A stretch of DNA of 64,000 nucleotides from positions 1 to 64,000 of the forward strand of contig NZ_AQXB01000002.1 in assembly GCF_000375365.1 (NCBI RefSeq), given 5' to 3'. Below the pieces are notes generated by a model. That model saw only the letters and a program-made list of their open reading frames with translations. It was not told the origin of the DNA and made no database searches. Both the position numbers and the translations under genes were made by a program. How positions within the stretch are numbered: position 1 is the stretch's first letter; the number at the start of each line of letters is the position of its first letter. The DNA is from Corynebacterium mastitidis DSM 44356 (GTDB taxonomy: Bacteria; Actinomycetota; Actinomycetes; Mycobacteriales; Mycobacteriaceae). Of the stretch, positions 9,453 to 39,981 are shown in pieces.

Positions 9453-11107
9453 TCCTCCACGAGGACGTCGAAGTTCATGCCCCTGCTGTGGTGCCCGGCG
9501 ATGGTGCACCAGCCGGGAACATCGGCGGTGATGATCCCGGCGTCCACCGTCGCCTCCCGGCCCGGGGTGACCCGCCCGGACCTGGCCCCGTTGGTGAGCT
9601 TGAGGTCATGGGCCCGGGAGTCCTCGTTGCGCAGCTCGATGACGAGGCGATGGCCCCGGGGCACGGTCACGGTGGCGGGCTCAAAGGCCATGTCGCCCGC
9701 GCGCACGGAGACCCGCGTCTCGGGCCCGCTACCCGGCCCGGAGCCGGGAGCCGTCCCGCCGGGGCCCGCGAGGCCGCCGCAGAGGGCCGTGACCAGGGCG
9801 AGGAGAGACAGCCCCAGCGCCACCTGGCCGGTGCCGCCGCGGGCGTGCTGAACCTCCGGAACCTCCGGGGTCTCCGGGATCTCGGAGAGCGAGGCCGCCT
9901 GAGTGTGCCCGCCCACCTGGGCGCGCACGGCGCGAACCATCAGCGGGAGGAAGGCCGCCAGGCCCAGGACCGCGAGGGCGCTGGCCGCCACGCGCAGCCA
10001 CGAGTAATCCGCCAGCAACCACAGGGCGAGGCCGCCGTTGGTGAGGGTGACGCGCAGCATGCCGGCGCGGTACGTCTCCCGCAGCCCCCAGGCGGAACGC
10101 ACCCGCATGGTGACCGGAAGCAGGTAGCTCATCATGCCCACCAGCAGTTGTCCGCCAAAGCCCACGAGAAGGGCGGTGATGGGCGGGGCCGCGTGGGCGC
10201 CCTGGCGCAGCACGTCCACGCAGAACCAGACCAGGCACCCGAGCAGCCACGCCAGCGCCGCCGTCACGGACACCGAGCCGTAGGTGGCTGCCTTGGGACC
10301 CGCGCTCAGCGCGATCCGGAACCACGGGGCGCAGGCGAGCAGCCAGCCGACGGTGTAGAGCGCCAACCCGGCGAAGAGCACCCAGGGGTGGTCGAGCAGG
10401 GCGCCGGGGACCGCCGCGCACAGGCCGCAGAGGTGCAGCCCGAGCACGACCCAGGGATGCGCGCCCGGGGCGTCGCGGCGGGGCGGGCGGCCCCAGAGGG
10501 CCGGAAAGAGCACCGCGAGGGTGGCCGAGGCGGCCAGCCCGAGGAAGTCGCCGAGGTTGAGGATCAGGTGCGCCTGCATTAGGCGATCGTGCGTGGCCCC
10601 CTCCGGCGAGGAGGCCAGCAGCGCGCCGATGGCCGCGCCCACGGTCAGGCACAGCGCGGAGGCGACGTAGCCGAGCACGCAGGGAAGAAGCGGCGCGCCG
10701 CGCCGTCGCCGGGCCTGGGCGCACAGCGCCCAGGCGTGCCAGAGGAGCGCGGCCGCCACGATTCCCGCGCCGAGGTGCGTCACGGCGGTCACGGCGGCGA
10801 CCTGCCCGGCCAGGGTGCCCACGACGCCGAGGTTGAGCAGCGCTATGCGGCGTAGCTGCGGAGGCCGGGCGGCGTGGTCAAGGCGCTGATCGAGGAAGGA
10901 CTCGGTGAAGTGCTGGGACCACACCACGATGGAGTTTGTCACCGCCCCCAGAGTGAAGGTGTGAATGAGCACCCAGCGGTAGTCCGGGATGGCGCTGTGC
11001 GCCAGGCCCACCAGCACGAGGACGACGAGCCACACCGTCACGGGACGGCTCGCGCGGCGGTGCCACGAGCCGCTCTGCGCCCTCGGCGCTCTCGGTGAGA
11101 TCCCCAT
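9449..11107 (-). CDS. Polytopic membrane protein fused to a C-terminal cupredoxin domain
   Basis: A 552-residue membrane protein. About eleven to twelve hydrophobic helices fill residues 20-390 and include several membrane-facing His residues (HTFTLGA, HLGAGIV, HAWAL). After a Pro/Glu linker and one more helix, a single secreted-side cupredoxin domain covers about residues 450-552 with candidate blue-copper ligands His (SRAHDL), Cys and His (GWCTIAGHH) and Met (RGMNF). Actinobacterial nitrite-reductase-like copper proteins often carry such a membrane part plus two or more cupredoxin domains; here only one remains. The start at 11107 has a TAGCAT box 6 bases upstream and is probably leaderless. 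Substrate unknown. Confidence 0.78.
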   Translation of the reverse strand: MGISPRAPRAQSGSWHRRASRPVTVWLVVLVLVGLAHSAIPDYRWVLIHTFTLGAVTNSIVVWSQHFTESFLDQRLDHAARPPQLRRIALLNLGVVGTLAGQVAAVTAVTHLGAGIVAAALLWHAWALCAQARRRRGAPLLPCVLGYVASALCLTVGAAIGALLASSPEGATHDRLMQAHLILNLGDFLGLAASATLAVLFPALWGRPPRRDAPGAHPWVVLGLHLCGLCAAVPGALLDHPWVLFAGLALYTVGWLLACAPWFRIALSAGPKAATYGSVSVTAALAWLLGCLVWFCVDVLRQGAHAAPPITALLVGFGGQLLVGMMSYLLPVTMRVRSAWGLRETYRAGMLRVTLTNGGLALWLLADYSWLRVAASALAVLGLAAFLPLMVRAVRAQVGGHTQAASLSEIPETPEVPEVQHARGGTGQVALGLSLLALVTALCGGLAGPGGTAPGSGPGSGPETRVSVRAGDMAFEPATVTVPRGHRLVIELRNEDSRAHDLKLTNGARSGRVTPGREATVDAGIITADVPGWCTIAGHHSRGMNFDVLVED

Positions 11108-11176
11108 GGCTTCATGCTAGGACTCGGGGGTGGCGTGGGGGTGCGCAGCGGCGCGTGGTGAGGCATCATCGCACTC

Positions 11177-11782
11177 ATGAACGATATTCCCGCCCCGGAG
11201 CCCGAGCCCGCGTCCCCCTCGCCCTCGCTGCTGAGCCGCGATCACCTCGTCATGCAGCAGGTGACCGGCCTGATGAGCAACGACTTTGACATCCTCGATC
11301 CCCAGGAGAACCCGGTGGGCAGGGTGCTCACCTCCGGCTCCCTCATGGGGCGCATGATGATGGGCCACCGGAGCCTGACCGTCGCGGAGCCGGACGGCAC
11401 CCCGCTGGTCAACCTCACCGACACGGTGAACCTTCTGCGCGAGACGATGGAGCTTACCCGCCCGGACGGCGCCGCCCTGGCCCACCTGCGGCAGCGCTGG
11501 AGCTTCTTCCGCACCCGCGTGGACATGCACCTGGCGGACGGGCGCACGGTGGAACTCACCGGGAACCCCTGGGACTATGACTATCAGTTCGTGGTGGAGG
11601 GCGCGGAGGTCGCCCGCGTGACGCGCTCCTGGGGCGGCCTGGGGCGCGCCCTGCTCGGTCATTCCCGCTACAACCTGGTGTTCGCGCCGGGCGTTCCGCA
11701 GGAGGTGCACGCGGCGGTGCTGGGCGGGGTGGTGGCGCTCGACCTCATCCGGGCGAAGCGCAGGACGGCGATCGGCAGCTAA
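11177..11782 (+). CDS. LURP-one/scramblase-like domain protein
   Basis: A 201-residue soluble protein resembling the LURP-one-related (tubby-like, phospholipid-scramblase-like) family. The repeating strand patterns are FDILDPQENPVGRVL, SLTVAEPDGTPLVNL, WSFFRTRVDMHLADGR and YDYQFVVEGAEVARVTR, followed by a hydrophobic C-terminal helix (HAAVLGGVVALDLI). Function in bacteria is unknown. The first 25 residues are Pro, Ser and Glu-rich. It is divergent from the cupredoxin fusion gene and convergent with sodA. Confidence 0.72.
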   Translation: MNDIPAPEPEPASPSPSLLSRDHLVMQQVTGLMSNDFDILDPQENPVGRVLTSGSLMGRMMMGHRSLTVAEPDGTPLVNLTDTVNLLRETMELTRPDGAALAHLRQRWSFFRTRVDMHLADGRTVELTGNPWDYDYQFVVEGAEVARVTRSWGGLGRALLGHSRYNLVFAPGVPQEVHAAVLGGVVALDLIRAKRRTAIGS

Positions 11783-11792
11783 CAACGACCAC

Positions 11793-11830
11793 GCGCCGCC
11801 CTCCCGCGGGCGCGGGGTGGGCGGCGCTGT
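11793..11830. terminator. Stem-loop between LURP-one gene and sodA
   Basis: A 9-base GC stem (gcgccgccc at 11793-11801 with gggcggcgc at 11819-11827) lies between the two convergent genes. A short T-rich stretch follows on the plus strand (tgtgtttgtg), so rightward termination is plausible. Confidence 0.6.
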
Positions 11831-11874
11831 GTTTGTGCGGTCCGTGCGGACCGTGCGGCTGTGCGCGCGGGGAG

Positions 11875-12477
11875 TTACTTCTGCGCGGCGGCGAAGCGGG
11901 CGGCCACGTCCTCCCAGTTAAAGACGTTCCACACGGCCTTGACGTAGTCCGGCTTCACGTTCTTGTACTGGAGGTAGAAGGCGTGCTCCCACATGTCCAG
12001 CATGAGCAGCGGGGTGAGGTTCGCGGAGACGTTGCCCTGCTGGTCGGTGAGCTGCTCCACGACCAGGCGGCCCGCGATGTGGTCGTAACCCAGCACGGCC
12101 CAGCCGGAGCCGTGCAGGCCCAGGGCGGCGGAGGAGAAGTGATCCTTGAACTTCTCGAAGGAGCCAAAGTCCCGGTCGATGGCCTCGGCCAGCTCGCCGG
12201 TGGGCTCGCCGCCGCCGTTGGGGGAGAGGTTCTTCCAGAAGATGGAGTGGTTGGTGTGGCCGCCCAGGTTGAAGGCCAGGTTCTTGGACAGCGCGCGGAT
12301 CTGATCCGGGTTGGTGCCCTCCTCGCGGGCCTTCTCCAGGGCCTCCAGGGCGGCGTTGGCGCCGGCCACGTAGGTGGCGTGGTGCTTGGAGTGGTGCAGC
12401 TCCATGATCTCCGCGGAGATGTGGGGCTCCAGGGCGTCGTAAGCGTAATCAAGCTCGGGAAGCTCGTAGACAGCCAT
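11875..12477 (-). CDS. sodA: Superoxide dismutase, Fe/Mn type
   Basis: A 200-residue cytoplasmic enzyme that dismutates superoxide to peroxide and oxygen. The metal ligands are visible: His in [10 protein letters not shown], His in [10 protein letters not shown], and Asp plus His in LDMWEHAFY. The [13 protein letters not shown] and LHGSGWAVL segments are typical of the Fe/Mn family. Metal choice cannot be settled by eye, but corynebacterial relatives are Mn enzymes. The ATG at 12477 follows aaagga. It is divergent from msrA, so two oxidative-defence genes share one upstream region of about 200 bases. Confidence 0.95.
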
Positions 12478-28226: not shown

Positions 28227-30134
28227 ATGGTGCTGCGGGATATGGTTTATCGGGGAATTGTGCGCGTGGGGCGCGTGGTCATCGCCCTCCAGGGCTTGCA
28301 GATGCACGTGGAGGGCCAGGAGCGCATCCCGCGCAAGGGGGGCGCGGTGCTGGTGATGAACCATACCGGCTACATGGACTTTGTCCTCGGGGGCTTCCCG
28401 CCCTATCGGCGCGGCCGCCTGGTGCGCTACATGACCAAGGCCGCGATCTTTGACAAGCCGGGGGTGGGGGCCCTCATGCGGGTCATGGGCCACATCCCCG
28501 TGGATCGCATCGACGGCGCGGCGTCCTTCGAGGAGGCGGTGCGCAAGGCCGCCGAGGGGCAGATCGTGGGCATCTTCCCCGAGGCCACGATCTCCCGCAG
28601 CTTCGAGATCAAGAACCTGCGCACGGGTGCCGTGCGCATCGCGCAGGCGGCGGGGGTGCCGGTGATCCCGATGGTGTGCTTTGGCTCGCAGCGGCTGTGG
28701 ACCAAGGGCGGGAAGAAGAACCTGGGGCGCAGCCGCGCCCCCATCTACCTCTCTCTCCTGGAGCCGTGGGTGCCGGAGGGCTCCCCGGAGGTGGACACGG
28801 AGCGGCTGCGCGCGCAGATGCAGGCGGGCCTGGGGGAGGTCTGGGCCCGGTACCGGCGCGACTACGGTGAGTTCCCGGCCGGGGAGTTCTGGGTTCCGGC
28901 CCGCTTTGGCGGCGGGGCGCCCTCCCTGGAGGAGGCGCAGCGCGAGGACAGCGCGGTGGAAAAGGAGCGCTACCGCGTGCGCAAGCTCAACGAGGACCTC
29001 GCCGGGCTGAGCGAGAAGATCAAGGAGGTCAGCCGCAACCTGGTGGCGGGGGCCTACGAGGCGTACGACTCCGCCCAGGGCAGGCTGGCCCAGGCGCAGG
29101 AGGCGCAGCGGGAGCAGAAGGAGAAGGCGCGGGACGAGGAGCGCACCGCGATGATGGTGTGGCTCAAGAACAACATGGACGAGCTGGCCACCGAGGTCTC
29201 CCAGGGGGCCAAGGAGGGAAGGGAGCGCATCGCGGCCTCCATGGAGCAGGCGAAGAACAACGCGGCCATGCTCTATTCGCAGCTCTCCAGCAGCGGCTGG
29301 GAGCGCTACGAGGGCTCGCGCCTGGACGAGGCGCTCACTCGCCTGGCGGCCCAGTCCAAGCAGATCGTGAGCAAGCTGCCCCACCGGCTCGGCTCGCAGT
29401 TTAACGGGATCCCCGCGGCCATCGTGTGCAACATCGAGGGATCGCTGCTGGGCACGGACGGCGCGGTGCACGAGCGCGACGCCGCGGCCCTGCGCCGCGC
29501 CGCGAGCGAGGGTGCCAGCGTGGTGCTGACCACCGAGTTTGGCCCCGAGGAGTGGCGGCGCGCCGCCGAGGAGGTGGGGGTGCGCACGGTCGGGGTGTGC
29601 TATGACGGCGCGGTGGTGCTGGGCGAGGACGGCGAGGTGCTCAGCCGGAGCTTCTTTGACGGGGAGGCCGTCGAATCCGTGGAGCGCACGGTGCGTGCCC
29701 TGGGCGCGGAGGTGTCGTTTGGGTGGCGCACGGACTCCGATAGTGAGGAATATCATAGGGTGATGGGCGTGGTGAAGGTGCCGGGGGAGCGGCTCGGAAA
29801 AACCGCCTCTCACCTGGCGAAAGACCTCAAGGGGGTGGCGGAGGTGGTACTCACCCCGCGCCGGGGCTTCCATCTCCTTCCGGCGGGATCAAACAAAGGT
29901 CTAGGCGTTTTTCGGGCCCTCGACGCCCTGCACATCACCCCCGAACAGGCGGTGGCCTTCGGGGCGGTTCCCTCGGACATTCCGGTGCTGGAGGCGGTGG
30001 GCAAGGCCGTGGCGATGGCCGACGCCCCCTCTGAGGTGCTGAAAAAGGCGAGCAGCGCCACGGCGGTGAGCGACGAGGCCGGCGTGGCCGAGGTATTGAC
30101 CCCCCTTCTGGACGCGGCCGCCGAGGGGGAGTGA
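28227..30134 (+). CDS. PlsC-type acyltransferase fused to a coiled coil and degenerate HAD domain
   Basis: A 635-residue fusion. Residues 15-230 form a 1-acylglycerol-phosphate acyltransferase domain with the NHTGYMD motif (HX4D, His 46 and Asp 51) and FPEAT in place of FPEGT. Residues 245-375 are a charged coiled-coil stretch (KLNEDLAGLSEKIKEVSRN and on). From about residue 390 a Cof-type HAD fold follows, but motif I is CNIEGSLLG instead of DxDGTxx, and the last motif is FGAVPSDIPVL instead of GDxxND, so phosphatase activity is probably lost. The ATG at 28227 has TATACT 7 bases upstream (leaderless). Corynebacterial relatives are often separate acyltransferase and HAD genes. Confidence 0.82.
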   Translation: MVLRDMVYRGIVRVGRVVIALQGLQMHVEGQERIPRKGGAVLVMNHTGYMDFVLGGFPPYRRGRLVRYMTKAAIFDKPGVGALMRVMGHIPVDRIDGAASFEEAVRKAAEGQIVGIFPEATISRSFEIKNLRTGAVRIAQAAGVPVIPMVCFGSQRLWTKGGKKNLGRSRAPIYLSLLEPWVPEGSPEVDTERLRAQMQAGLGEVWARYRRDYGEFPAGEFWVPARFGGGAPSLEEAQREDSAVEKERYRVRKLNEDLAGLSEKIKEVSRNLVAGAYEAYDSAQGRLAQAQEAQREQKEKARDEERTAMMVWLKNNMDELATEVSQGAKEGRERIAASMEQAKNNAAMLYSQLSSSGWERYEGSRLDEALTRLAAQSKQIVSKLPHRLGSQFNGIPAAIVCNIEGSLLGTDGAVHERDAAALRRAASEGASVVLTTEFGPEEWRRAAEEVGVRTVGVCYDGAVVLGEDGEVLSRSFFDGEAVESVERTVRALGAEVSFGWRTDSDSEEYHRVMGVVKVPGERLGKTASHLAKDLKGVAEVVLTPRRGFHLLPAGSNKGLGVFRALDALHITPEQAVAFGAVPSDIPVLEAVGKAVAMADAPSEVLKKASSATAVSDEAGVAEVLTPLLDAAAEGE

Positions 30135-30179
30135 TCGGGGAACTAGACACCCCCGAAAAACTCACGTGTATCGCAGGTC

Positions 30180-30216
30180 AAAGCCGTGATGTGGACATTT
30201 TTACCGGGGCTTTTTT
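30180..30216 (+). terminator. Possible terminator before glpD
   Basis: aaagcc (30180-30185) can pair with ggcttt (30208-30213) across a 22-base loop, followed by more T. The stem is short, so this is only a weak candidate end for the acyltransferase transcript. Confidence 0.4.
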
Positions 30217-30227
30217 GCGCACCTTTT

Positions 30228-30286
30228 TGATACTGTGAACCCGTATCACGAGCGAGAACACATGGCCTTAAGGCCATCCGCATACT
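30228..30286 (+). promoter_or_regulatory. glpD promoter region with two inverted repeats
   Basis: Two inverted repeats stand before the glycerol genes: TGATAC-N9-GTATCA (30228-30248) and the perfect 16-base palindrome ATGGCCTTAAGGCCAT (30262-30277). A CATACT -10 box follows at 30281-30286, so the second palindrome fills the spacer between -35 and -10 and is well placed for a repressor. A near-GlxR motif (TGTGA...TCACG) has a 7-base instead of 6-base gap. Confidence 0.55.
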
Positions 30287-30317
30287 GTGAAAAGAGAGGG
30301 TTAGGTAGCTACTACTA

Positions 30318-32048
30318 ATGGCTTCCACAAGCAAACAAACTTTCAATCCCGAGTCCTATGAGAAGGCGTGGAAGCGCTTCGGGGACGAGGAGTTCGACGT
30401 CGTGATCATCGGCGGCGGCTCGGTGGGCGCGGGCGCCGCCGTGGACGCGGCGACCCGCGGCCTCAAGGTCGCCGTGGTAGAGACCCGCGACTTTGCCGCC
30501 GGCACCTCCTCGCGCTCCTCCAAGATGTTCCACGGCGGCCTGCGCTACCTGGCGATGTTTGACTTCCGCCTCGTGGCGGAGTCGCTGCGCGAGCGCGAGC
30601 TGAACATGTCCACCCTGGCCCCGCACCTGGTCAAGCCGCTGCGCTTCATCTTCCCGCTCACCCACCGCATGTGGGAGCGCGTGATGATGTTCGGTGGCTT
30701 CACCCTGTACGACCTCATGGGCGGTGCCAAGACCGTGCCCATGCAGAAGCACCTCACCCGCAAGAGCGTGCTCAAGCGCAACCCCGGCCTGCGCGAGGAC
30801 GCCGTGGTGGGCGGCGTGCGCTACTACGACACCCAGGTGGACGACGCCCGCCACACCATGATGGTGCTGCGCACCGCCGCCGAGTACGGCGCCGTGGTGC
30901 GTCCCTCCACCCAGGTCACCGGCCTGGACAAGGTCAACGGCCGCGTGGTCTCCGCCCGCCTGCGGGACACGGACACCGGCGCGGAGACCACCATCCGAGG
31001 CTCCGTGTTCATCAACGCCACCGGCGTGTGGAACGACGAGATCGAGAAGATGGCGGGCACCAAGGGCAAGTTCTCCGTGCACGCCTCCAAGGGCGTGCAC
31101 ATCGTGGTGCCCAAGGACGTGCTGGAGGCGGATTCCGCCCTGACCTTCGTGACCGAGAAGTCCGTGCTCTTCGTCATGCCGTGGGGCGACTACTGGATCA
31201 TCGGCACCACGGACACCGACTGGGCCAAGACGCTGAGCAAGCCGGACCCGGCCCCCACCCGCGCGGACATCGACTACATCCTCACCGAGGTGAACAAGCG
31301 CGTGCGCCGCCCCATCGTCCACTCGGACATCGTGGGCGTGTACTCCGGGCTGCGCCCGCTCCTGGAGGGCAGCTCCGACTCCACCACCAACCTCTCGCGC
31401 AACCACGCCGTGGCGCGCAACGTGCCGGGCCTGGTCTCCGTGGCCGGCGGCAAGTACACCACGTACCGCGTGATCGGCAAGGACGCCGTGGACCTGGCGC
31501 TCCAGGACGTGCCCAAGAAGGTCTCCGAGTCCATCACGGACCAGACCCCGATCCTGGGCGCGGACGGCTACCACGCCCTGTCCAACCAGGTGCCCGCCCT
31601 GGCCGCGCGCCACGGGCTGACGGAGAAGCAGATCGAGCATCTGCTGGGCCGCTACGGCTCCCTCTACGAGGAGGTGCTCGCGCCCGCCGCCGAGGACAAG
31701 GACCTGCTGTCCCCCCTCCCGGCCGCCGAGGGCTACCTCAAGGCCGAGGCGCTCTACGCCGTGACCCATGAGGGCGCGCTGCACCTGGAGGACGTGCTCG
31801 GGCGCCGCCTGCGCGTGTCCATGGAGTACGCGCACCGCGGCCTCGACTCTGCGGAGGCCGTGGCGGACCTCATCGCCCCCGTCCTGGGCTGGGACGAGGC
31901 GGCCAAGAAGAAGGAGATCGAGACCTTCCGCGGCCGGATCGAGGCGGAGCTCGCCGCAGAGAAGGCGCTCACGGATGAGGACGCGAACACGATCGTCACC
32001 GAGGCCGCCGATTCCCGACATTCCATTGATACCTCCGTGGAGGACTGA
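30318..32048 (+). CDS. glpD: Aerobic glycerol-3-phosphate dehydrogenase
   Basis: A 576-residue FAD enzyme that oxidises glycerol-3-phosphate to dihydroxyacetone phosphate and passes electrons to menaquinone at the membrane face. The FAD-binding motif is VVIIGGGSVGAGAAVDAATRG (residues 27-47), followed by ARDFAAGTSSRSSKMFHGGLRY-type residues (ETRDFAAGTSSRSSK). The C-terminal DAO_C part covers about residues 400-545. It heads the cluster glpD-glpF-glpK and overlaps glpF as TGATG, so the two are translationally coupled. Confidence 0.95.
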   Translation: MASTSKQTFNPESYEKAWKRFGDEEFDVVIIGGGSVGAGAAVDAATRGLKVAVVETRDFAAGTSSRSSKMFHGGLRYLAMFDFRLVAESLRERELNMSTLAPHLVKPLRFIFPLTHRMWERVMMFGGFTLYDLMGGAKTVPMQKHLTRKSVLKRNPGLREDAVVGGVRYYDTQVDDARHTMMVLRTAAEYGAVVRPSTQVTGLDKVNGRVVSARLRDTDTGAETTIRGSVFINATGVWNDEIEKMAGTKGKFSVHASKGVHIVVPKDVLEADSALTFVTEKSVLFVMPWGDYWIIGTTDTDWAKTLSKPDPAPTRADIDYILTEVNKRVRRPIVHSDIVGVYSGLRPLLEGSSDSTTNLSRNHAVARNVPGLVSVAGGKYTTYRVIGKDAVDLALQDVPKKVSESITDQTPILGADGYHALSNQVPALAARHGLTEKQIEHLLGRYGSLYEEVLAPAAEDKDLLSPLPAAEGYLKAEALYAVTHEGALHLEDVLGRRLRVSMEYAHRGLDSAEAVADLIAPVLGWDEAAKKKEIETFRGRIEAELAAEKALTDEDANTIVTEAADSRHSIDTSVED

Positions 32049-32785
32049 TGCTTACTGCTACTGATGCTTTCTTGTGGGAGTTCCTCGGAACGACCCTGCT
32101 GTTGCTCCTGGGCAACGGCGTGTGCGCGGTGAACGCGCTGCGCACCTCCGGCGGCAAGGGCGCCGGCTGGATCCTTATCGCCTTCGGCTGGGGCATGGCC
32201 GTGTACGTGGGTGCCAGCGTGGCTGACGTCTCCGGCGGCCACCTCAACCCGGCCGTCACCGTCATGCTCGCCCTCAAGGGCGCCGTGGCGTGGTCCCTCG
32301 TCCCGGCCTACGTGGCCGGGCAGCTCCTCGGCGCCATCTTCGGCGCCGTGCTGGCCTGGGCGGCCTTCAAGCAGCTCTTCGACGCCAACAACGTTGACGA
32401 GCGCGGCAACGTCACCGGGGCCAACAAGGACACCGGCGGGATCTTCTTCACCGGCCCGGCGGAGCCGAACAACGCGTGGAACACCGTCACCGAGTTCATT
32501 GCCACCTCGGTGCTGCTGATCTTCATCGCCTTCGGCCCCACCGGCGGCGAGCTCGGCCCGCTGACCTACTTCGGCGTGGCCTTCGTGATCGTGGCCATCG
32601 GCATGTCCCTGGGTACCCCCACGGGCTACGCGCTGAACCCGGTGCGCGACTTCGGCCCCCGCCTGGCCTACGCCTTCCTGCTGCCCATCCCCGGCAAGGG
32701 GAACCCCAACTGGGGCTACGCCTGGGTGCCCGTGGTGGGCCCCATGCTGGCTGCGGTGGCGGTGGGTCTGCTGGCCGCGCTGTAG
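32048..32785 (+). CDS. glpF: Glycerol uptake facilitator, aquaglyceroporin
   Basis: A 245-residue MIP-family channel with six membrane helices. The first pore motif is HLNPAVT (Asn near residue 67); the second is LNPVRDFGPR, that is NPV instead of NPA but followed by Arg-Asp as in glycerol channels. The GlpF-type Asp after the second motif supports glycerol rather than water transport. It is coupled to glpD by a 1-base overlap and lies 116 bases before glpK. Confidence 0.93.
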   Translation: MLTATDAFLWEFLGTTLLLLLGNGVCAVNALRTSGGKGAGWILIAFGWGMAVYVGASVADVSGGHLNPAVTVMLALKGAVAWSLVPAYVAGQLLGAIFGAVLAWAAFKQLFDANNVDERGNVTGANKDTGGIFFTGPAEPNNAWNTVTEFIATSVLLIFIAFGPTGGELGPLTYFGVAFVIVAIGMSLGTPTGYALNPVRDFGPRLAYAFLLPIPGKGNPNWGYAWVPVVGPMLAAVAVGLLAAL

Positions 32786-32839
32786 AGCGGCTAAGGTGAT
32801 GAGGGAGACCTACGGCGGAAAGCGCAGTAGCAGTAACCC

Positions 32840-32856
32840 GGCCCCCACCGGGGGCC
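32840..32856 (+). other. Stem-loop between glpF and glpK
   Basis: ggcccccaccgggggcc forms a compact 7-base GC stem in the 116-base gap. It has no T run and may stabilise or partly end the glpDF message rather than terminate it. Confidence 0.5.
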
Positions 32857-32901
32857 TACCCGTACAGCACTACGGATAGAAATAACGGAGCAACTGAACC
32901 A

Positions 32902-34434
32902 ATGAGCCAGAACAAGTACGTTGCGGCCATCGACCAGGGCACGACTTCGACGCGCTGCATTCTCTTCGACCACGACGGCAACCAGGTTGCCTCGGGGCAG
33001 TTCGAGCACGAGCAGATCTTCCCCCAAAAGGGGTGGGTGGAGCACGACCCCGTGGAGATCTGGGACAACACCCGCCGCGCCGTGGGCAGCGCCCTCGCGG
33101 ACAGCGACGTGGCGAGCCACGACATCACCGCCGTGGGCATCACCAACCAGCGCGAGACCACCGTGGTGTGGGACAAGAACACCGGCGAGCCGGTGTACAA
33201 CGCCATCGTGTGGCAGGACACCCGCACCAGCGAGCTGTGCGCGGAGCTCTCCGGCGAGGAGGGCCCCGACCGCTGGCGCAAGACCACCGGCCTGCGCATC
33301 AACTCCTACCCCTCCGGGCCCAAGATCAAGTGGATCCTGGACAACGTGGAGGGCGCCCGCGAGCGCGCCGAGGCCGGGGACCTCCTCTTCGGCACCATCG
33401 ACACCTGGCTGCTGTGGAACCTCACCGGCGGCGCCGAGGGCGACGAGGGCGAGCCCGCCGTCCACGCCACGGACGTGACCAACGCCTCCCGCACCCTGCT
33501 CATGGACCTGGAGACCCTCCAGTGGGACCCCGAGCTGTGCAAGGCCATGGACATCCCCATGTCCATGCTTCCCGAGATCCGTCCCTCCCTGGGCGACTTC
33601 CGCAAGATCCGCGCCCGCGGCTCCCTGCCGGGCGTGCCCATCCGCGCCGTCCTCGGCGACCAGCAGGCCGCCATGTTCGGCCAGGGCTGCTTCCGCCCCG
33701 GCGACGCCAAGAACACCTACGGCACCGGGCTGTTCCTGCTCCTCAACACGGGCACCACGCCCAAGTGGAGCGATAACGGCCTGATCACCACCGTGTGCTT
33801 CCAGATCGAGGGCGAGCGCCCCGTGTACGCCCTGGAAGGGTCCGTCTCCATGGGCGGCTCCCTGGTGCAGTGGCTGCGCGACAACCTCCAGATCATCCCC
33901 AACTCCGGGCAGATCGAAAACCTCGCCCGCGAGGTGCCGGACAACGGCGGCGTGTACATCGTCCCCGCCTTCTCCGGGCTCTTCGCCCCGCACTGGCGGC
34001 CCGACGCCCGCGGCGTCATCGTGGGCCTGACCCGCTTTGCCAACCGCAAGCACCTGGCCCGCGCCGTGCTGGAGGCCACCGCCTACCAGACCCGCGAGGT
34101 GGCCGACGCCATGGTGGCGGACTCCGGCGTGGAGATCACCGATCTGCGCGTGGACGGCGGCATGACCATGAACGAGCTGCTCATGCAGTTCCAGGCGGAC
34201 ATCCTGGGCACGAACGTGGTGCGCCCGAAGAACATCGAGACCACCGCGACCGGCGCCGCCCTGGCGGCCGGCATCTCCGTGGGCTACTGGGACAGCCTCG
34301 ACGTGCTGCGCCAGGACAAGGACTCCACCACCGTGTGGAAGCCCAAGATGGAGCAGGAGCAGGTGGACACCCTCTACGCCGAGTGGCAGCGCGCCGTGAA
34401 GCGCTCCCTGAACTGGGAGTACGACGCGGACTAG
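32902..34434 (+). CDS. glpK: Glycerol kinase
   Basis: A 510-residue FGGY-family kinase that phosphorylates glycerol with ATP. It opens with [21 protein letters not shown] (phosphate-1 motif). Substrate-contact residues lie in [13 protein letters not shown] and [12 protein letters not shown], and the second signature [26 protein letters not shown] is in the C-terminal half, with [17 protein letters not shown] near the end. The full family length is present. With glpF and glpD it completes uptake and entry of glycerol into glycolysis. Confidence 0.96.
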
Positions 34435-34448
34435 GGTTTTGCCCTCTT

Positions 34449-34490
34449 GAAAGTGCCGCCGAGCGAGGGGAGCCTCGGAGGCACTTTTCT
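34449..34490. terminator. Terminator between glpK and the Rv3651-like gene
   Basis: An outer stem aaagtgcc/ggcacttt (34450-34457 with 34480-34487) and an inner stem ccgag/ctcgg (34459-34463 with 34474-34478) are followed by TTCT. On the minus strand the same stem is followed by TTTC, so it may serve both convergent genes. Confidence 0.85.
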
Positions 34491-35316
34491 ATCGGGGGAT
34501 GGTAGCGAGCACGATGCCCGGCGCCGCCGGGAGTAGTGTGTGCTCGGCGGGAAGCTCGGGGAGGGGGCCAAACCCGTGGAGCATGGCCTCCGGCAACTCT
34601 GGCCGCTGCGCGGAAAGCCAGGCGAGGACGCGGCGGGAGGAGGCGTCGATGAAAGCGGGTGCGCACCCCTGTGCCTGAGCGGTGTGGTCGAGCACGCTGC
34701 GGGCAACGGTGTCCGCGTCGTCGGGAGCAGTTTTCTCGGGTAACGTGACAGAAACGCCTACCACCCGGGTCCCCTCAAAAGTTTTAATGCACCGCATCGT
34801 ATATTTGTGGACGAATCCGTGCGCGTCAAGGTATTCCCCCGTGCATCGTGAGCCGGGCTGCGCCGTACGAATCTGTTGGGCCAAGCACAGAACATCGGCT
34901 GGACGGGAGAGCTGGGATAACCAGTCGGTAAGAGTTTGTCGCGGGGTAAAGGGGTTTTTCTCCTGGGTGACCGTGGTGGGGATGATGGGATCGGTGAGGT
35001 CCCATTCCCATGCCTGCGTTTCAGGCTCCCGGGGGAGGCTATCGGTAGGGTCACCGACCCACATCAGTACGCCATGAACGTGGCGGGCAACTCCGAGAAC
35101 GGGGAAGGCTATTGCCAAGCGAGGCCCCGCAAGATCCACAAGTACCTGAGATTGCTTGAGATTATTGAGCACAGTCTCCACAAGGCGCACCACAGTGGTG
35201 CGCACGGAACCGCGAAACTCGTTGGATAGCGGGCGCCATTGCTTCGAGCGATTCCCAATACGCAGCACCGCAGGGGACTTCCCCACGGTGTCTACCAGAA
35301 ACCAACCCTCAGCCAT
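34489..35316 (-). CDS. Rv3651-like (DUF5593-type) protein
   Basis: A 275-residue soluble protein. The N terminus, AEGWFLVDTVGKSPAVLRIG with a later RSKQWRPL, resembles the start of mycobacterial Rv3651-like proteins as I remember them; that family has PAS/GAF-like domains and no proven function. A ligand-sensing role is therefore possible but unproven. I chose ATG 35316 because gaggaaaa lies 6-7 bases before it; an ATG at 35334 is upstream of that site. It overlaps the monooxygenase stop by 8 bases, so the two are co-translated. Confidence 0.65.
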   Translation of the reverse strand: MAEGWFLVDTVGKSPAVLRIGNRSKQWRPLSNEFRGSVRTTVVRLVETVLNNLKQSQVLVDLAGPRLAIAFPVLGVARHVHGVLMWVGDPTDSLPREPETQAWEWDLTDPIIPTTVTQEKNPFTPRQTLTDWLSQLSRPADVLCLAQQIRTAQPGSRCTGEYLDAHGFVHKYTMRCIKTFEGTRVVGVSVTLPEKTAPDDADTVARSVLDHTAQAQGCAPAFIDASSRRVLAWLSAQRPELPEAMLHGFGPLPELPAEHTLLPAAPGIVLATIPR

Positions 35317-36811
35317 GCAGCTTTTCCTCGGCATTGACGTTCAATGAAAAGCACGTACGCAGGCAGGATAGCATGGCTGCTTCCTCATCGACGCCGCCTG
35401 CCCAAGCAACGTATCCGTCCGGGCGAACCACAATGACGTCGGGAAAATCCTCAGGAAGGCCGCTACTAACGGCAACAGCATCGGTGAACGGAGGGACTGA
35501 GAGCTTCCCCAGGGCATCAGGAGAAGCAATGAGAAGAAACTTTCCTCGTTGCAAGAGCCTACCGATGCTGGTGATCTCTCCGGATACCGCGACCTCCAGG
35601 TCGGGCATGAACGTTCCATCAAGTGCTGGGTAGCGTTCCAATCCCACGCTGTACTGAGTAGAAACTCCATTGATCCGGTCGGCCAGCCAATCGTGTGTCT
35701 CCTCGGAGCAAAGAAGCTCGGCTATAAAGTTCCGGAGAGGGTCATAGATGGGCGCAGGATTCATCATCAGAGATTGCAGCCGGGTGTTATTGATCAACCA
35801 TTGCCCCGCTGGCTCACGCTCTTGGCCGTATGTGTCGAGCAAATCCTCATCGGCCGCGCCGCTGAGAACGGCGCTGATTTTCCAACCCAAGTTGATAGCG
35901 TCAAGGATTCCCGTGTTGAGACCCTGGCCACCAAGAGGATAGTGAATATGAGCGGCATCGCCGGCAAGGAAGAGTCGGCGATCGCGATAGCGCTGGGCGA
36001 TCCGGCTGTAGTCGCTAAACCGATTGAGGTAGTGCGGAGACTCAAGCTCTACGGGGCTACCGACTACGCGCTCAACTGCGGCGGAGAATTCCTCGGGGGT
36101 GACGGGGGCCTTACGATCCGACGCCGGACCATCGAACTCAAAGACGATGAGCCTGCTCTCCCCATAGGGGTTGTAGTTAAGGAGGCTCCATCCCCGCGGA
36201 GTGTGTGACCATCCATTAGGTATCTGATCGGGCTGCGGGAGGGTGACCAAACCAAGCATGGCCCGCATGGTGGGAGCATGTTCCTGAAAGAAGAAATCCC
36301 CTGATCGCCGGACTATGCTCTGCCCACCGTCTGCGCCGATGACATAGTCCGCACTAACCTCATGGATCTTCCCCTCGGCATCGACGGACCGGACGGATAC
36401 CCCCGCCTCATTCTGTGAGACATCGGTGACGCAGTGCCCTCGTAGCAGGTGGGCTCCGCAGCCCTCTGCGTGGCGGGTAATCGCACGCTTCAAGTCTGCT
36501 TGGGCTATACCCAGCATGACGGGCCCGTCAATCGTCCGTGAGCGGAGCCGTAACCACGGGTATCCCGCGAACTGGAACGGCTCGATTGTGTTCGCTAAGT
36601 GATCGTTCGTGCGGCGTGGAGAAGCGACTATCCCGCGCCTAATAAGAGCAGATATGGCTCGTGCATGGTAGGTACCGGCCTTCGGATATTCGCTGACCGT
36701 ATGACGCTTTTCTAGGACCACGGAAGAGATACTGTGCAGTGCAAGCTCGTTAGCGATCAACATCCCTACAGGGCCGCCGCCGACGATCACTACATCGTAA
36801 TGATGATTCAT
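35309..36811 (-). CDS. FAD-dependent aromatic monooxygenase, PHBH/polyketide-hydroxylase type
   Basis: A 500-residue flavoprotein hydroxylase. The FAD GxGxxG motif is VVIVGGGPVGMLIANELAL (near residue 8), the DG motif is YVIGADGGQSIVRR (near 160) and the GD motif is LFLAGDAAHIHYPLGGQGLN (near 285), followed by GILDAINLGWKISAVL. The C-terminal thioredoxin-like part of this class covers about residues 395-500. Relatives hydroxylate aromatic polyketides or inactivate tetracyclines and rifamycins; the substrate here is unknown. It lies 79 bases after an efflux-pump gene on the same strand, and its base composition is more AT-rich than its neighbours. Confidence 0.87.
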   Translation of the reverse strand: MNHHYDVVIVGGGPVGMLIANELALHSISSVVLEKRHTVSEYPKAGTYHARAISALIRRGIVASPRRTNDHLANTIEPFQFAGYPWLRLRSRTIDGPVMLGIAQADLKRAITRHAEGCGAHLLRGHCVTDVSQNEAGVSVRSVDAEGKIHEVSADYVIGADGGQSIVRRSGDFFFQEHAPTMRAMLGLVTLPQPDQIPNGWSHTPRGWSLLNYNPYGESRLIVFEFDGPASDRKAPVTPEEFSAAVERVVGSPVELESPHYLNRFSDYSRIAQRYRDRRLFLAGDAAHIHYPLGGQGLNTGILDAINLGWKISAVLSGAADEDLLDTYGQEREPAGQWLINNTRLQSLMMNPAPIYDPLRNFIAELLCSEETHDWLADRINGVSTQYSVGLERYPALDGTFMPDLEVAVSGEITSIGRLLQRGKFLLIASPDALGKLSVPPFTDAVAVSSGLPEDFPDVIVVRPDGYVAWAGGVDEEAAMLSCLRTCFSLNVNAEEKLHG

Positions 36812-36890
36812 GATGGCATGATCCTTTCTAGGTGGAGGCGTGAGAGTCTACGAAGTCTTACTCTTCGTTCATCTCGAAAAATTATTTCCA

Positions 36891-38423
36891 TTAAGGTGTG
36901 GTTGATCCACTATCGCTATGGGTGGACTCCGCGTTTGATCTCCGTAGTAGTGCGGTGACCATGACTGATAAAGCTATAGTTAGTGTGAATATGGACCATA
37001 GGAGTGAGCTAAACCCTTCCAGCAGCGTTGTTTTTAGAAGGTGTGATGAAACCCCCGGTGTGTCTATACCGGATATTTCCCCGGTAGTAACAGCATTTAA
37101 TATCGCTTCCTTTTCCTCTTGACTGAAGCTGCTGAGAAGGTATTCCTGGACTCTTAGCCCGATGATCGTGTTTAGTATGCCGCCGAATATTGCAACCGCT
37201 ATCGCCTCGCTTCCTAGCCGGACGGTGGAGACGAGGCCTGATGCCATTCCCGACTTTTCCTCGGGTACCGATCCGATAGCTTGGCTATCGACGAGGCCCA
37301 CGCCTAGTCCGAACCCGAGCCCGATCATTAGGAAGGAGATCACTAAGGAGGGTGGGTGTGGGGTCAAGCCCTGGAAGGTGAGCAGAGCGGAACCGATCGA
37401 AAAGAAGGAGATGCTGCCGCCGAGGATCGTCCAAGAGGGGATGCCACGGTCGTGAAGTTTTCCGGCGATGAGTGGACCGAAGATAACGGGGGCGGTCATG
37501 ATGAGCATGGTCATTCCCAGTGCTCCTGGCGATAGCTCCCATGCTCCGGTGAGAAGAATGGGGTAGTAGGTGAGCAGAGTGACAAATCCTATTGCGCCTG
37601 CCGTCGGGACGAGGAGAAGCCCGAGGAGCTGTGGTGATCTGAGAAGGCCGAAATCAAGAAGGGGATGCTGGACGCGCCGCTCAATCTGGAGGAATCCAAT
37701 AAACAGAATGATGCCGAGGAGGAGGGTGGTGAGGGTTCTAGGGGTAGACCATCCCCAAGCGTTGCCTTGAGATATCCCGGTGATGGTGAGGGTAATGGAG
37801 GATGTAAAAATAAGCGCCCCCACGTAGTCTATCTTGGTTGCGGTGGGGTTTGGGGCGTCTTTAACGCGAGAGTAAAGGATTAGAGCTATTGATAGGCTCA
37901 TCGCTGCCGCGCTAAACCAAAATATTCCAGACCATCCCGTCACAGCGATTGTCAGCGATGAGACGGTGGGGCCAAAACCCAGGCCCACTCCGGCGGCTGT
38001 GCCAAATAGGGAAAAGGCGCGTGCTGAGGCCTTTCCTGAAAAAGTGATAGCCAACAGCGCTCCCGAACAGGAGAATACGATAGCGGCACCTACTCCCGCT
38101 AGGGCGCGGGCGACATCGAGGAACATGAGGTTTGGTGCTACTGCACTGAGCGCTGCCGAGAGGGTGAAGATGAACGACCCGACAATGAGTCCGCGCGTTC
38201 GTCCAAAATGATCGGCGAGGGAGCCTGCTACCAGGCTGAACACTGCGAAGGTGAGGTTAAAGGCATTGACCACCCACTGTAGTTGAGTTGGTTGTGCTCC
38301 CAATTCTGAGGCTATATGGGGAAGAGTCACTCCGGTTCCGGATACGCCCATCGGTACGATGGTGACGCTGAGGAGGATGGCGGTGAGAAGAATATTTGGT
38401 TTTTCTTGAAGTTTATTGTCCAT
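36891..38423 (-). CDS. DHA2-family MFS drug efflux transporter (14 helices)
   Basis: A 510-residue proton-coupled exporter of the EmrB/QacA group. It has about fourteen hydrophobic segments. Motif A appears as GSLADHFGRTRGLIVG (about residues 67-82) and the motif C-type glycine/proline run is GTAAGVGLGFGPTVS (about 141-155). Drug:proton antiporters of this group expel lipophilic cations or antibiotics. It is the first gene of a three-gene unit with the monooxygenase and the Rv3651-like protein. Low GC compared with the flanks suggests horizontal gain. Confidence 0.9.
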   Translation of the reverse strand: MDNKLQEKPNILLTAILLSVTIVPMGVSGTGVTLPHIASELGAQPTQLQWVVNAFNLTFAVFSLVAGSLADHFGRTRGLIVGSFIFTLSAALSAVAPNLMFLDVARALAGVGAAIVFSCSGALLAITFSGKASARAFSLFGTAAGVGLGFGPTVSSLTIAVTGWSGIFWFSAAAMSLSIALILYSRVKDAPNPTATKIDYVGALIFTSSITLTITGISQGNAWGWSTPRTLTTLLLGIILFIGFLQIERRVQHPLLDFGLLRSPQLLGLLLVPTAGAIGFVTLLTYYPILLTGAWELSPGALGMTMLIMTAPVIFGPLIAGKLHDRGIPSWTILGGSISFFSIGSALLTFQGLTPHPPSLVISFLMIGLGFGLGVGLVDSQAIGSVPEEKSGMASGLVSTVRLGSEAIAVAIFGGILNTIIGLRVQEYLLSSFSQEEKEAILNAVTTGEISGIDTPGVSSHLLKTTLLEGFSSLLWSIFTLTIALSVMVTALLRRSNAESTHSDSGSTTP

Positions 38424-38442
38424 AATTTAACCTGGTATTCCC

Positions 38443-38525
38443 ATTTTGAAAATCGGTGACCGATCCTGTGCATACTTCCGGAGTGGGCCGGGGATTTTGG
38501 AAATCGGTTTGTTAGTTCCCATAGT
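38443..38525. promoter_or_regulatory. Control region upstream of the efflux pump gene
   Basis: Two near-identical 15-base copies, attttgaaaatcggt (38443-38457) and attttggaaatcggt (38494-38508), are spaced 51 bases apart, close to five helical turns. The first copy ends in the perfect palindrome ATCGGT-g-ACCGAT (38452-38464), about 30 bases before the pump ATG. The second copy overlaps a rightward -35 (TTGGAA, 38497-38502) that is 17 bases from CATAGT (38520-38525). This looks like a divergent, regulator-bound promoter region. Confidence 0.6.
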
Positions 38526-38558
38526 GTTTGCGTGCTAGCGCCTGGGGGAAAAGGGGAA

Positions 38559-38699
38559 ATGATGATAAAAGACATCGGCGCGACGGTTGGTGGGGAATCT
38601 GAGATGCGTGTGCTCGCGCGGTGTGAGTGTGGGAAGAGCTGGGTTGAATCCAGGTGCAAGAATCATGGTGGCCCCTTGGTGTACCTCTGTTCGAACTGA
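38559..38699 (+). CDS. Candidate small Cys-rich protein
   Basis: A 46-residue frame beginning MMIKDIGATVGG with four cysteines in the arrangement RCECGKSW...RCKNHGG...YLCSN, which could bind zinc. It has a good upstream aagggg, and a plausible promoter (TTGGAA, 17 bases, CATAGT) lies 33 bases before it, divergent from the efflux pump. No family is recognised and it may be the start of a decayed gene. Confidence 0.35.
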   Translation: MMIKDIGATVGGESEMRVLARCECGKSWVESRCKNHGGPLVYLCSN

Positions 38700-39134
38700 A
38701 AGACGCCCGCTCTGGCGATGGCCGGAGTGGCGTAGATGAGGTCTGGGCTTGTGGGCAAGGGGCCTACGAAGCAACTCTCTATCTGATGATCACATGATGG
38801 GCAGGTTTGCTCTTTTTTGCAAGCGATGTGGCCGGTAGGTCCTGATGGTGTGAGCGGTTGCGTTGAAAAAGTAGAGTTCAGGAGGCATTTCGGGTATGCA
38901 AGGTGTGATATTTCACATTCCGCTGTGAGCGGGTGATGTCGTCCGTGCATCGGCGGCGCGTCTCTGGCGTCCTGTGATCCCTCTGTTCCCTGTGTTTGGG
39001 TGGGACTGCCCCGATGGTTCGTCACTTGTTACAAGACCATTACCTTTTGTTTTGTGCATACATTCTTTTTTTGGTCGCAGTAGCCTTTGTTGCGGCCACC
39101 GTGGCAGCGGCGAGGGATGGTGCCGAAACCCGGT
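38700..39134. other. Gene-free stretch after the accessory block
   Basis: About 430 bases in which no convincing gene is seen on either strand. It is AT-richer than the flanks. A leftward frame with a CPSCDH cysteine pair exists (38663-39025) but has no ribosome site or known domain. It may be remnant DNA from the exchange that brought in the efflux block. Confidence 0.45.
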
Positions 39135-39147
39135 TACAATCAACTCC

Positions 39148-39981
39148 GTGACCACCCCACCACCCCTGCTCATCGTCAGCGACATCGACGGCACGCTCAT
39201 CACCTCCGAGGAGCGGGTACCGGAGCGCCTGCGGGCGGTGCTGGGGAGGGCCGTCGAGAAGCGGTGCGCCGTGGCGCTGGCTACGGGCAGGCCGCACCGC
39301 TGGCTCTTTCCGGTGCTGGAGCAGCTTCCCGTGCGCCCGGTGTGCGCCACGGCCAACGGCGCGGTGCTCTACGACCCCGCGGAGGACGCCATCCTGCGCG
39401 TCCGCGCCCTCGCTCCGGACACCATGCGCGACGTGGTGGCGCGTGCCCGCGCGGCGTTGGGGGAGCGCGGGGAGCCGCTGAGCGTGGCGGCGGAGCGCTG
39501 CGGGGCGTCCGCCTTTGACTCGGAGGAGGAGCTGTTCGTGGTGAGCCCGCGCTACGTGCACACCTGGGAGGCGCAGGGCTACGCCGTGCGCTCGGAGGAC
39601 GAGGTGATAGCGGAGCCCGCCGTGAAGCTGCTGTTGCGCAACGAGCGTATGACCTCCGCGCAGATGTATGAGGCGATCGCCCCGGCCCTGGATCCTCGGG
39701 TGGCGCATCTGACCTACTCCATGCCGGAGGGATTGCTGGAGGTGGCGGCGCCGGGGGTGACCAAGCAGGTGGCGGTGGCCGACCTGGCGCGCCGTCATGG
39801 CGTGCCCCGGGAGCGGGTGGTGTGCTTTGGGGACATGCCCAACGACGTGGAGATGCTGCGCTGGGCCGGGCTGGGCGTGGCGATGGGCAACGCGGCCCCG
39901 GAGGTGAAGCGCGCGGCGGATCGGGTGACGGGCACGAACGACGAGTGCGGGGTGGCGCAGGTGCTGGAGGAGTGGTTTTAG
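39148..39981 (+). CDS. HAD-superfamily Cof-type phosphatase
   Basis: A 277-residue hydrolase with intact HAD motifs: SDIDGTLITSEERVP (nucleophile Asp), LATGRPHRWL (motif II), the Lys in APGVTKQVAVADLARRHG, and CFGDMPNDVEMLRWAG (metal site). Cof-type enzymes dephosphorylate sugar phosphates or cofactors; the substrate is unknown. The GTG at 39148 has TACAAT 7 bases upstream, so a leaderless start is likely, and upstream frames are ignored. By gene order it may correspond to the HAD gene that follows an acyltransferase gene in C. glutamicum. Confidence 0.9.
   Translation: MTTPPPLLIVSDIDGTLITSEERVPERLRAVLGRAVEKRCAVALATGRPHRWLFPVLEQLPVRPVCATANGAVLYDPAEDAILRVRALAPDTMRDVVARARAALGERGEPLSVAAERCGASAFDSEEELFVVSPRYVHTWEAQGYAVRSEDEVIAEPAVKLLLRNERMTSAQMYEAIAPALDPRVAHLTYSMPEGLLEVAAPGVTKQVAVADLARRHGVPRERVVCFGDMPNDVEMLRWAGLGVAMGNAAPEVKRAADRVTGTNDECGVAQVLEEWF

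Follow-up and report, generated by a model that had tools for sequence, protein, structure and literature searches.

The three-gene block and what it belongs to

The 64,000 nucleotides of contig NZ_AQXB01000002.1 from Corynebacterium mastitidis DSM 44356 analysed here (the window) carry three co-directional genes on the minus strand at 34489-38525, between glpK and a HAD gene, and the question they raise is whether this block is a cassette of its own or a part of something larger. The original prediction had read it as one unit, made of an efflux pump, an aromatic flavin adenine dinucleotide (FAD)-dependent monooxygenase and an Rv3651-like protein, and had proposed a role in detoxification or self-protection. 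Gene calls and Pfam matches agree with three genes on one strand and with the families broadly as named. The trio is, however, very probably what is left, after truncation, of an autoregulator-type (AfsA) biosynthesis and export cluster that was acquired horizontally, because the full operon is present in relatives, AfsA and an operon-type P450 are absent here, and likely scars of missing genes remain. AfsA is the first enzyme in the synthesis of butyrolactone, butenolide and furan autoregulators.

The first gene in the order of transcription encodes an MFS pump of 510 aa (36891..38423, minus strand), followed by a FAD-dependent monooxygenase of 500 aa (35309..36811, minus strand) and a short form of the Rv3651-like protein of 281 aa (34489..35334, minus strand; PF18007, 82 bits, cut-off 25). 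The pump and monooxygenase genes are separated by 79 bp, the monooxygenase and Rv3651-like genes overlap by 26 bp, and all three open reading frames (ORFs) are intact. The placement of the monooxygenase in the PHBH-type family was well founded: FAD_binding_3 (PF01494) scored 236 bits against a cut-off of 22, together with Rng_hyd_C (PF21274, 40 bits), and residues G11/G13/G16, D161-G162 and G284-D285 of the FAD motifs are invariant in ten aligned sequences, the window included. The pump belongs to MFS_1 (PF07690, 142 bits). Its DHA2 label stands only as a likeness, since TIGR00711 was the best match among the NCBIfam matches listed but scored 123 bits against a cut-off of 230. A hydropathy count of the pump helices was too noisy to separate 12 from 14, and a promoter and terminator scan returned chance-level signals only.

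The complete operon in relatives

In two sister species, the interval between glpK and the HAD-IIB gene (L011 from genome G063 and L012 from C. oculi, genome G064) contains six genes on one strand in the order AfsA, HAD phosphatase (230 aa), MFS pump, P450 (395 aa), FAD monooxygenase and Rv3651-like protein. A second, divergent MFS gene lies on the other side of AfsA. The same six genes in identical order, at 46-65% identity, were found in L078 and L079 of one genus and in L080 of another, and all six occur in rearranged order in L063, L064 and L082. The window monooxygenase is 78% identical to both sister proteins and 60-61% identical to those of L078-L080; the corresponding values are 61-66% and 57-59% for the pump, and 73% (G063) and 46-48% for the Rv3651-like protein. 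The C. oculi pump gene is interrupted by an in-frame stop and, further on, by a frameshift, its Rv3651-like gene is split between two frames, and the second MFS gene is frame-split in both G063 and C. oculi. These disruptions could be real decay or draft errors.

We compared 24 AfsA-bearing regions of at most 20 kb each with the six query proteins at 1e-6 or 1e-5. The sample was non-random, with four genus genomes that have AfsA, 15 regions picked either because their AfsA resembles the corynebacterial one or to widen the range, and five in which AfsA is close to Rv3651-like_N. AfsA, HAD phosphatase, P450, monooxygenase and pump were matched together in 13 regions and all six proteins in eight, five of which (L011, L012, L078, L079 and L080) keep the same order. 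The gene-neighbourhood search suggested by the original prediction thus finds the trio homologues together elsewhere, but always in company: 8/8 fetched loci outside the window that match all trio proteins also match AfsA, HAD phosphatase and P450. Elsewhere the trio is part of a larger operon, and its reading as a self-contained unit is not confirmed.

Missing genes and their probable traces in the window

No match to AfsA (PF03756) was found in the window genome (G000; 2.37 Mb, 39 contigs, 99.98% complete), while both sister species have the gene at this site. Without an AfsA-family synthase, the window copy can be no more than a remnant and does not count as a working member of the cluster type. 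Of the tailoring and export genes, monooxygenase and pump are kept here and HAD phosphatase and P450 are missing from the site. A PF00067 search detected no operon-type P450 in the window genome. Its sole match, on contig C2 at 102079-103425, lies in an open frame of 1082 residues, a length that suggests a P450-reductase fusion.

Probable traces of the absent genes were recognised by comparison with the relatives. At the place of AfsA, a 43-codon ORF (38535..38666, minus strand) resembles the AfsA start over its first ~21 codons, which are a probable stub of the deleted gene, with TLTPREHTH in the window against TLVPREKVH in L011 and L012 and TLVPREHVH in L078. When the register was fixed at the start codon, 6/23 residues were identical to L012, a value equalled by 141 of 20000 shuffles; when matching was limited to the first 30 AfsA residues, 7 of 2000 shuffles matched as well as the window sequence. 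The conserved region upstream of AfsA is retained over 65 bp (38735..38799, minus strand), with 83% identity to L011 (E 6e-13) and 82% to L012 (E 8e-12). Directly before the monooxygenase start lies a probable scar of the P450 3' end (36812..36831, minus strand): the 23 nt ending in the monooxygenase ATG are CTAGAAAGGATCATGCCATCATG in the window and CTAGAAAGGGTCAGAAGATCATG in L011, where TAG is the P450 stop. The match is poorer in L012 and L078. A probable 3' remnant of the second MFS gene, comprising its last 50 codons and stop, lies at 38999..39151 on the plus strand. The DNA match that covers HAD-IIB extends to window position 38997 (L011) or 38996 (L012), and by eye the remnant reads GGTAPMVRHLLQDHYLLF... 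in the window and GGTAPMIRHALEDHYAVF... in L011 and L012. The putative AfsA stub and P450 scar are each weak alone. Combined with the gene order in other genera, the scars make gene loss far likelier than gene gain.

Insertion site and divergence of the window copy

The flanks are the gene at 32902..34434 (plus strand), which we take to be that of glycerol kinase (glpK) and whose protein is 97-98% identical in the sister species, and a HAD-IIB hydrolase gene at 39148..39981 (plus strand; PF08282, TIGR01484), which was matched at 1e-60 in 195 of 201 genus genomes. An insertion between glpK and this core gene, as had been supposed, is borne out by the relatives. Relative to the site of G129, the whole insertion spans 34435..39134, as window positions 30000-34434 and 39135-39977 align by blastn to L084 6071-10505 and 10564-11406. 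In all four relatives fetched, chosen by HAD-IIB similarity (G129, G083, G198 and G048), glpK is followed by HAD-IIB within ~100 bp. AfsA, the Rv3651-like protein and the monooxygenase (at 1e-50) were found in none of the four. The empty site suggests that the site was originally without the cluster. The AT-richer, foreign composition was also seen on comparison with the flank, with a GC content of 54-62% and a third-position GC (GC3) of 0.58-0.70 in the trio versus 69% and 0.98 in glpK; the trio homologues in L011 have GC3 of 0.44-0.51. The repeat list held no clear target-site repeat. A plasmid origin found no support, as P0001 had no match in 72,556 plasmid records, and the 153 matches of the AfsA query to plasmid records were all below 60% identity.

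In the genus (201 genomes, counting that of the window), three genomes have the Rv3651-like protein, four the Rv3651-like_N family, six the monooxygenase (E no higher than 1e-50) and four AfsA. The trio genes are accessory in the genus, and AfsA-type clusters are rare in Corynebacterium.

The synonymous divergence (dS) of seven flanking genes was similar for all pairs: 0.23-0.55 between the window and L011, 0.24-0.62 between the window and L012, and 0.24-0.51 between the two sister loci. In the trio, L011 and L012 differ by 0.27-0.39, whereas the window gave 1.9-2.4 against L011 and 1.8-2.3 against L012, with proportions of synonymous differences (pS) of 0.68-0.72, which is saturation. The L012 pump and Rv3651-like gene entered this comparison as fragments. 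In a monooxygenase tree of ten sequences, the window joins L011 and L012 (100/100), and L011 pairs with L012 (100/99). Since the trio is saturated to the sister species while the flanks are close, the window trio appears to be a divergent allele at a shared insertion site, with versions that are related but anciently separated. Simple vertical deletion from the sister-species copy was rejected on the basis of dS. Import by recombination through the flanks and two acquisitions are both compatible with the data.

In L011, ~1 kb (10861-11888, G063) separates the Rv3651-like gene from glpK, and small ORFs were seen there by eye, one of which has a signal-peptide-like start. This gap is at most 58 bp in C. 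oculi and in the window.

Two other Corynebacterium genomes have in common 4,801 bp of a related AfsA-type cluster, 99.2% identical between L013 6231-11031 (G076) and L014 6853-11653 (G168). In G076 the common stretch starts inside the HAD gene, next to a transposase gene of the IS240 type, and no AfsA match was found in this genome. The pair records a recent transfer; it also gives a second case in which the synthase was lost, with monooxygenase, pump and P450 retained in G076.

Alternative explanations

A detoxification cassette against an aromatic antibiotic, in which the monooxygenase inactivates the drug, the pump expels it and the Rv3651-like protein senses it, would account for the trio being kept when the synthase was not, and the closest solved relatives of the monooxygenase include 4k2x and the rifampin monooxygenase 5vqb. 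The scores are nevertheless far below the resistance cut-offs: the monooxygenase reached 296 bits against the 800 required for rifampin monooxygenase (NF033145), and the pump fell below every cut-off among the 25 NCBIfam matches listed. With the AfsA, HAD and P450 partners in all eight trio-matching loci, this proposal of the original prediction is very unlikely, and antibiotic inactivation was rejected as the principal function on the NCBIfam cut-offs and the AfsA context. The pump or the monooxygenase may have a leftover resistance role. That the trio is the ancestral unit, to which the sister species later added AfsA, HAD phosphatase and P450, might be argued from the divergence of the window allele and the weakness of some scars; the same six-gene order in two other genera and the scars of missing genes in the window make it extremely improbable.

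In a special case of the remnant reading, the trio would have been kept as a receiver or modifier module, with which the strain, itself no longer a producer, oxidises, exports and senses an autoregulator made by its neighbours. The window ORFs are intact, whereas the C. oculi pump and Rv3651-like gene are disrupted, and the AfsA upstream region still stands above the pump. Intact ORFs are, however, equally expected of a recent remnant, and the saturated dS to both relatives hides any selection since the deletions, so we regard this module as possible but doubtful. Several points weigh against the remnant reading itself. Three intact ORFs are not required of a dead remnant. The AfsA stub is short, and with the whole AfsA open to match, 241 of 2000 shuffles equalled it, which is not significant; the P450 scar has only ~20 nt and is weak on its own; and tblastn with the second MFS gene of the more distant L078 gave no match in the window at 1e-3. 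AfsA could in principle sit in an unassembled gap of the 39-contig, 99.98% complete assembly, and the HAD phosphatase is missing at the window site, with no search made for it elsewhere in the genome. The claim of a separate allele is also weaker than its numbers look, because a shift in GC can raise dS and the pump and Rv3651-like genes of L012 entered as fragments. A truncated autoregulator cluster still explains the locus best, and the predicted product of the complete form is a diffusible butyrolactone, butenolide or furan.

Receptor and the Rv3651-like protein

Classical autoregulator systems have a TetR receptor of the ArpA/ScbR type. When ten genomes and 14 controls were searched with NF041196 (ScbR/ArpA-type, cut-off 150 bits), the cut-off was passed in one genome (G336, 203 bits) and in none of the controls. 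The best scores were 48 bits in G000, 48 in G063, 49 in G064, 46 in G129, 50 in G168, 58 in G275, 61 in G313, 87 in G364 and 148, near the cut-off, in G451. No ScbR/ArpA-type receptor above the cut-off was found by this model in the window genome, in either sister species or in any of the three relatives that keep the gene order. Weaker TetR matches occurred in all ten genomes and in 13/14 controls. The receptor may be of another TetR kind, since the cluster region of L063 includes a TetR gene.

Rv3651-like genes are near AfsA more often than expected by chance. In the family, AfsA is found in 89/301 genomes, Rv3651-like_N in 146/301 and both in 63. By eye among the matches listed, AfsA lies within ~8 kb of an Rv3651-like gene in at least seven genomes outside the genus, from three genera (G275, G313, G364, G336, G391, G222 and G451). 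The chance expectation is 0.44 pairs within 10 kb (Poisson P about 5e-7, a value that is too small because the paired genomes are related to each other). In one of them, L081 8511-10824 (G391), AfsA adjoins the Rv3651-like gene, and the other four operon proteins have no match in 20 kb. The Rv3651-like region of G029 had no AfsA match at 1e-6.

A profile of nine Rv3651-like relatives matched residues 6-261 of PDB 4q6u, labelled 'Uncharacterized protein', which we take to be Rv3651, with an E value of 9.5e-16. The short cluster forms lack ~70-80 residues relative to 4q6u and to the long cluster forms. We know of no function for 4q6u or for the cluster proteins. The structure predicted for P0001 from its single sequence had a mean predicted local distance difference test (pLDDT) score of 37, too low for a fold comparison, and the literature search found no paper combining 'Rv3651' and 'PAS domain'. 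Given the receptor scores and the AfsA neighbourhood, the Rv3651-like protein is a candidate partner of the signal, nothing more. A wider proposal would be a Mycobacteriaceae AfsA hormone system without an ArpA/ScbR receptor, with the Rv3651-like protein as ligand-binding partner, the Rv3651 family descended from or sharing a hormone-sensing fold, and the window species a non-producer that keeps the oxidation, export and sensing half; we consider it unlikely.

Proposed chemistry of the operon

By analogy with SrrX/SrrP/SrrO and MmfL/MmfP/MmfH, which the operon fits by gene content, synthesis would begin with the AfsA-catalysed condensation of a C3 unit and a beta-keto-acyl thioester. The phosphate would be taken off by the HAD phosphatase; oxidation of the product would fall to the P450 and the FAD monooxygenase, and its export to the pump. 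The Rv3651-like protein would stand at the sensing end, a role that we infer. The remnant in the window is presumably no longer able to make the molecule from scratch. The solved structures nearest to the monooxygenase are 4k5r and 3fmw ('Oxygenase'), which we take to be the Baeyer-Villiger enzyme MtmOIV; 4k2x (polyketide oxygenase/hydroxylase) is also near, and 5vqb is fourth-best. With 4k5r and 3fmw as nearest structures, the monooxygenase cannot be assigned from its sequence to either aromatic hydroxylation or Baeyer-Villiger oxidation.

Other AfsA clusters

The six-gene cluster is one type among several AfsA clusters. Six of the 24 regions match the AfsA query alone. L069 lacks only the P450, and its matches are 26-32% identical in the six-query comparison; L071 and L073 combine AfsA with monooxygenase and pump matches that are weak (27-33%). 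The AfsA region L029 of G200 matched none of the six queries at 1e-6, and its AfsA was seen by the family model only. L065, L066 and L067 are five-gene AfsA clusters of other genera, each beside a gene for a family-5 solute-binding protein; L065 and L067 have weak HTH_20 matches below cut-off nearby, and L067 also has a gene for an oligopeptide-type ATP-binding cassette (ABC) ATPase.

Comparison with known systems

Signalling of the gamma-butyrolactone type is best known from Streptomyces. A six-gene AfsA operon in several Mycobacteriaceae genera and in Corynebacterium genomes of 2.4 Mb, including that of C. oculi, would extend hormone-type signalling to small genomes. The operon is a defined unit that could be expressed in the search for products, and it sets the Rv3651-like family in a biochemical context that can be tested. 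The loss of the synthase in two places, in the window and beside the transposase gene of G076, resembles turnover between producers and non-producers.

As described in PMC12301235, the S. rochei butenolide (SRB) pathway (SrrX, SrrP and SrrO) likewise combines an AfsA-type synthase, a phosphatase and a butenolide-oxidising P450. The operon here differs in its additional FAD monooxygenase, pump and Rv3651-like protein, and the window lacks the synthase; the phosphatase and P450 were compared by description only. The furan pathway of methylenomycin, which leads to 2-alkyl-4-hydroxymethylfuran-3-carboxylic acids (AHFA), has an AfsA-type synthase, a phosphatase and a proposed flavin-dependent monooxygenase (MmfL, MmfP, MmfH and Ahfa homologues; PMC7037778). 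The flavin enzymes were again compared by description, and the ahfa cluster encodes TetR-type regulators, whereas none is among the six genes here. In a related genus, the Rhodococcus gblA-gblR-gblE gamma-butyrolactone cluster shares the AfsA homologue. Unlike in the operon here, gblA is accompanied there by a TetR receptor and in many cases by an epimerase; the authors found no other conserved neighbours, and the main text contains neither 'P450' nor 'monooxygenase' (PMC5735094). In PMC8549736, 14 butyrolactone clusters are tabulated for its genome set, and some Corynebacterium AfsA clusters may already be counted among them. A literature search by title and the start of the abstract, which covered openly available papers and their main texts, found no description of the six-gene operon among the papers listed. 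The kind of cluster is known; apparently new are its arrangement of six genes, the occurrence in small Corynebacterium genomes and the Rv3651-like partner.

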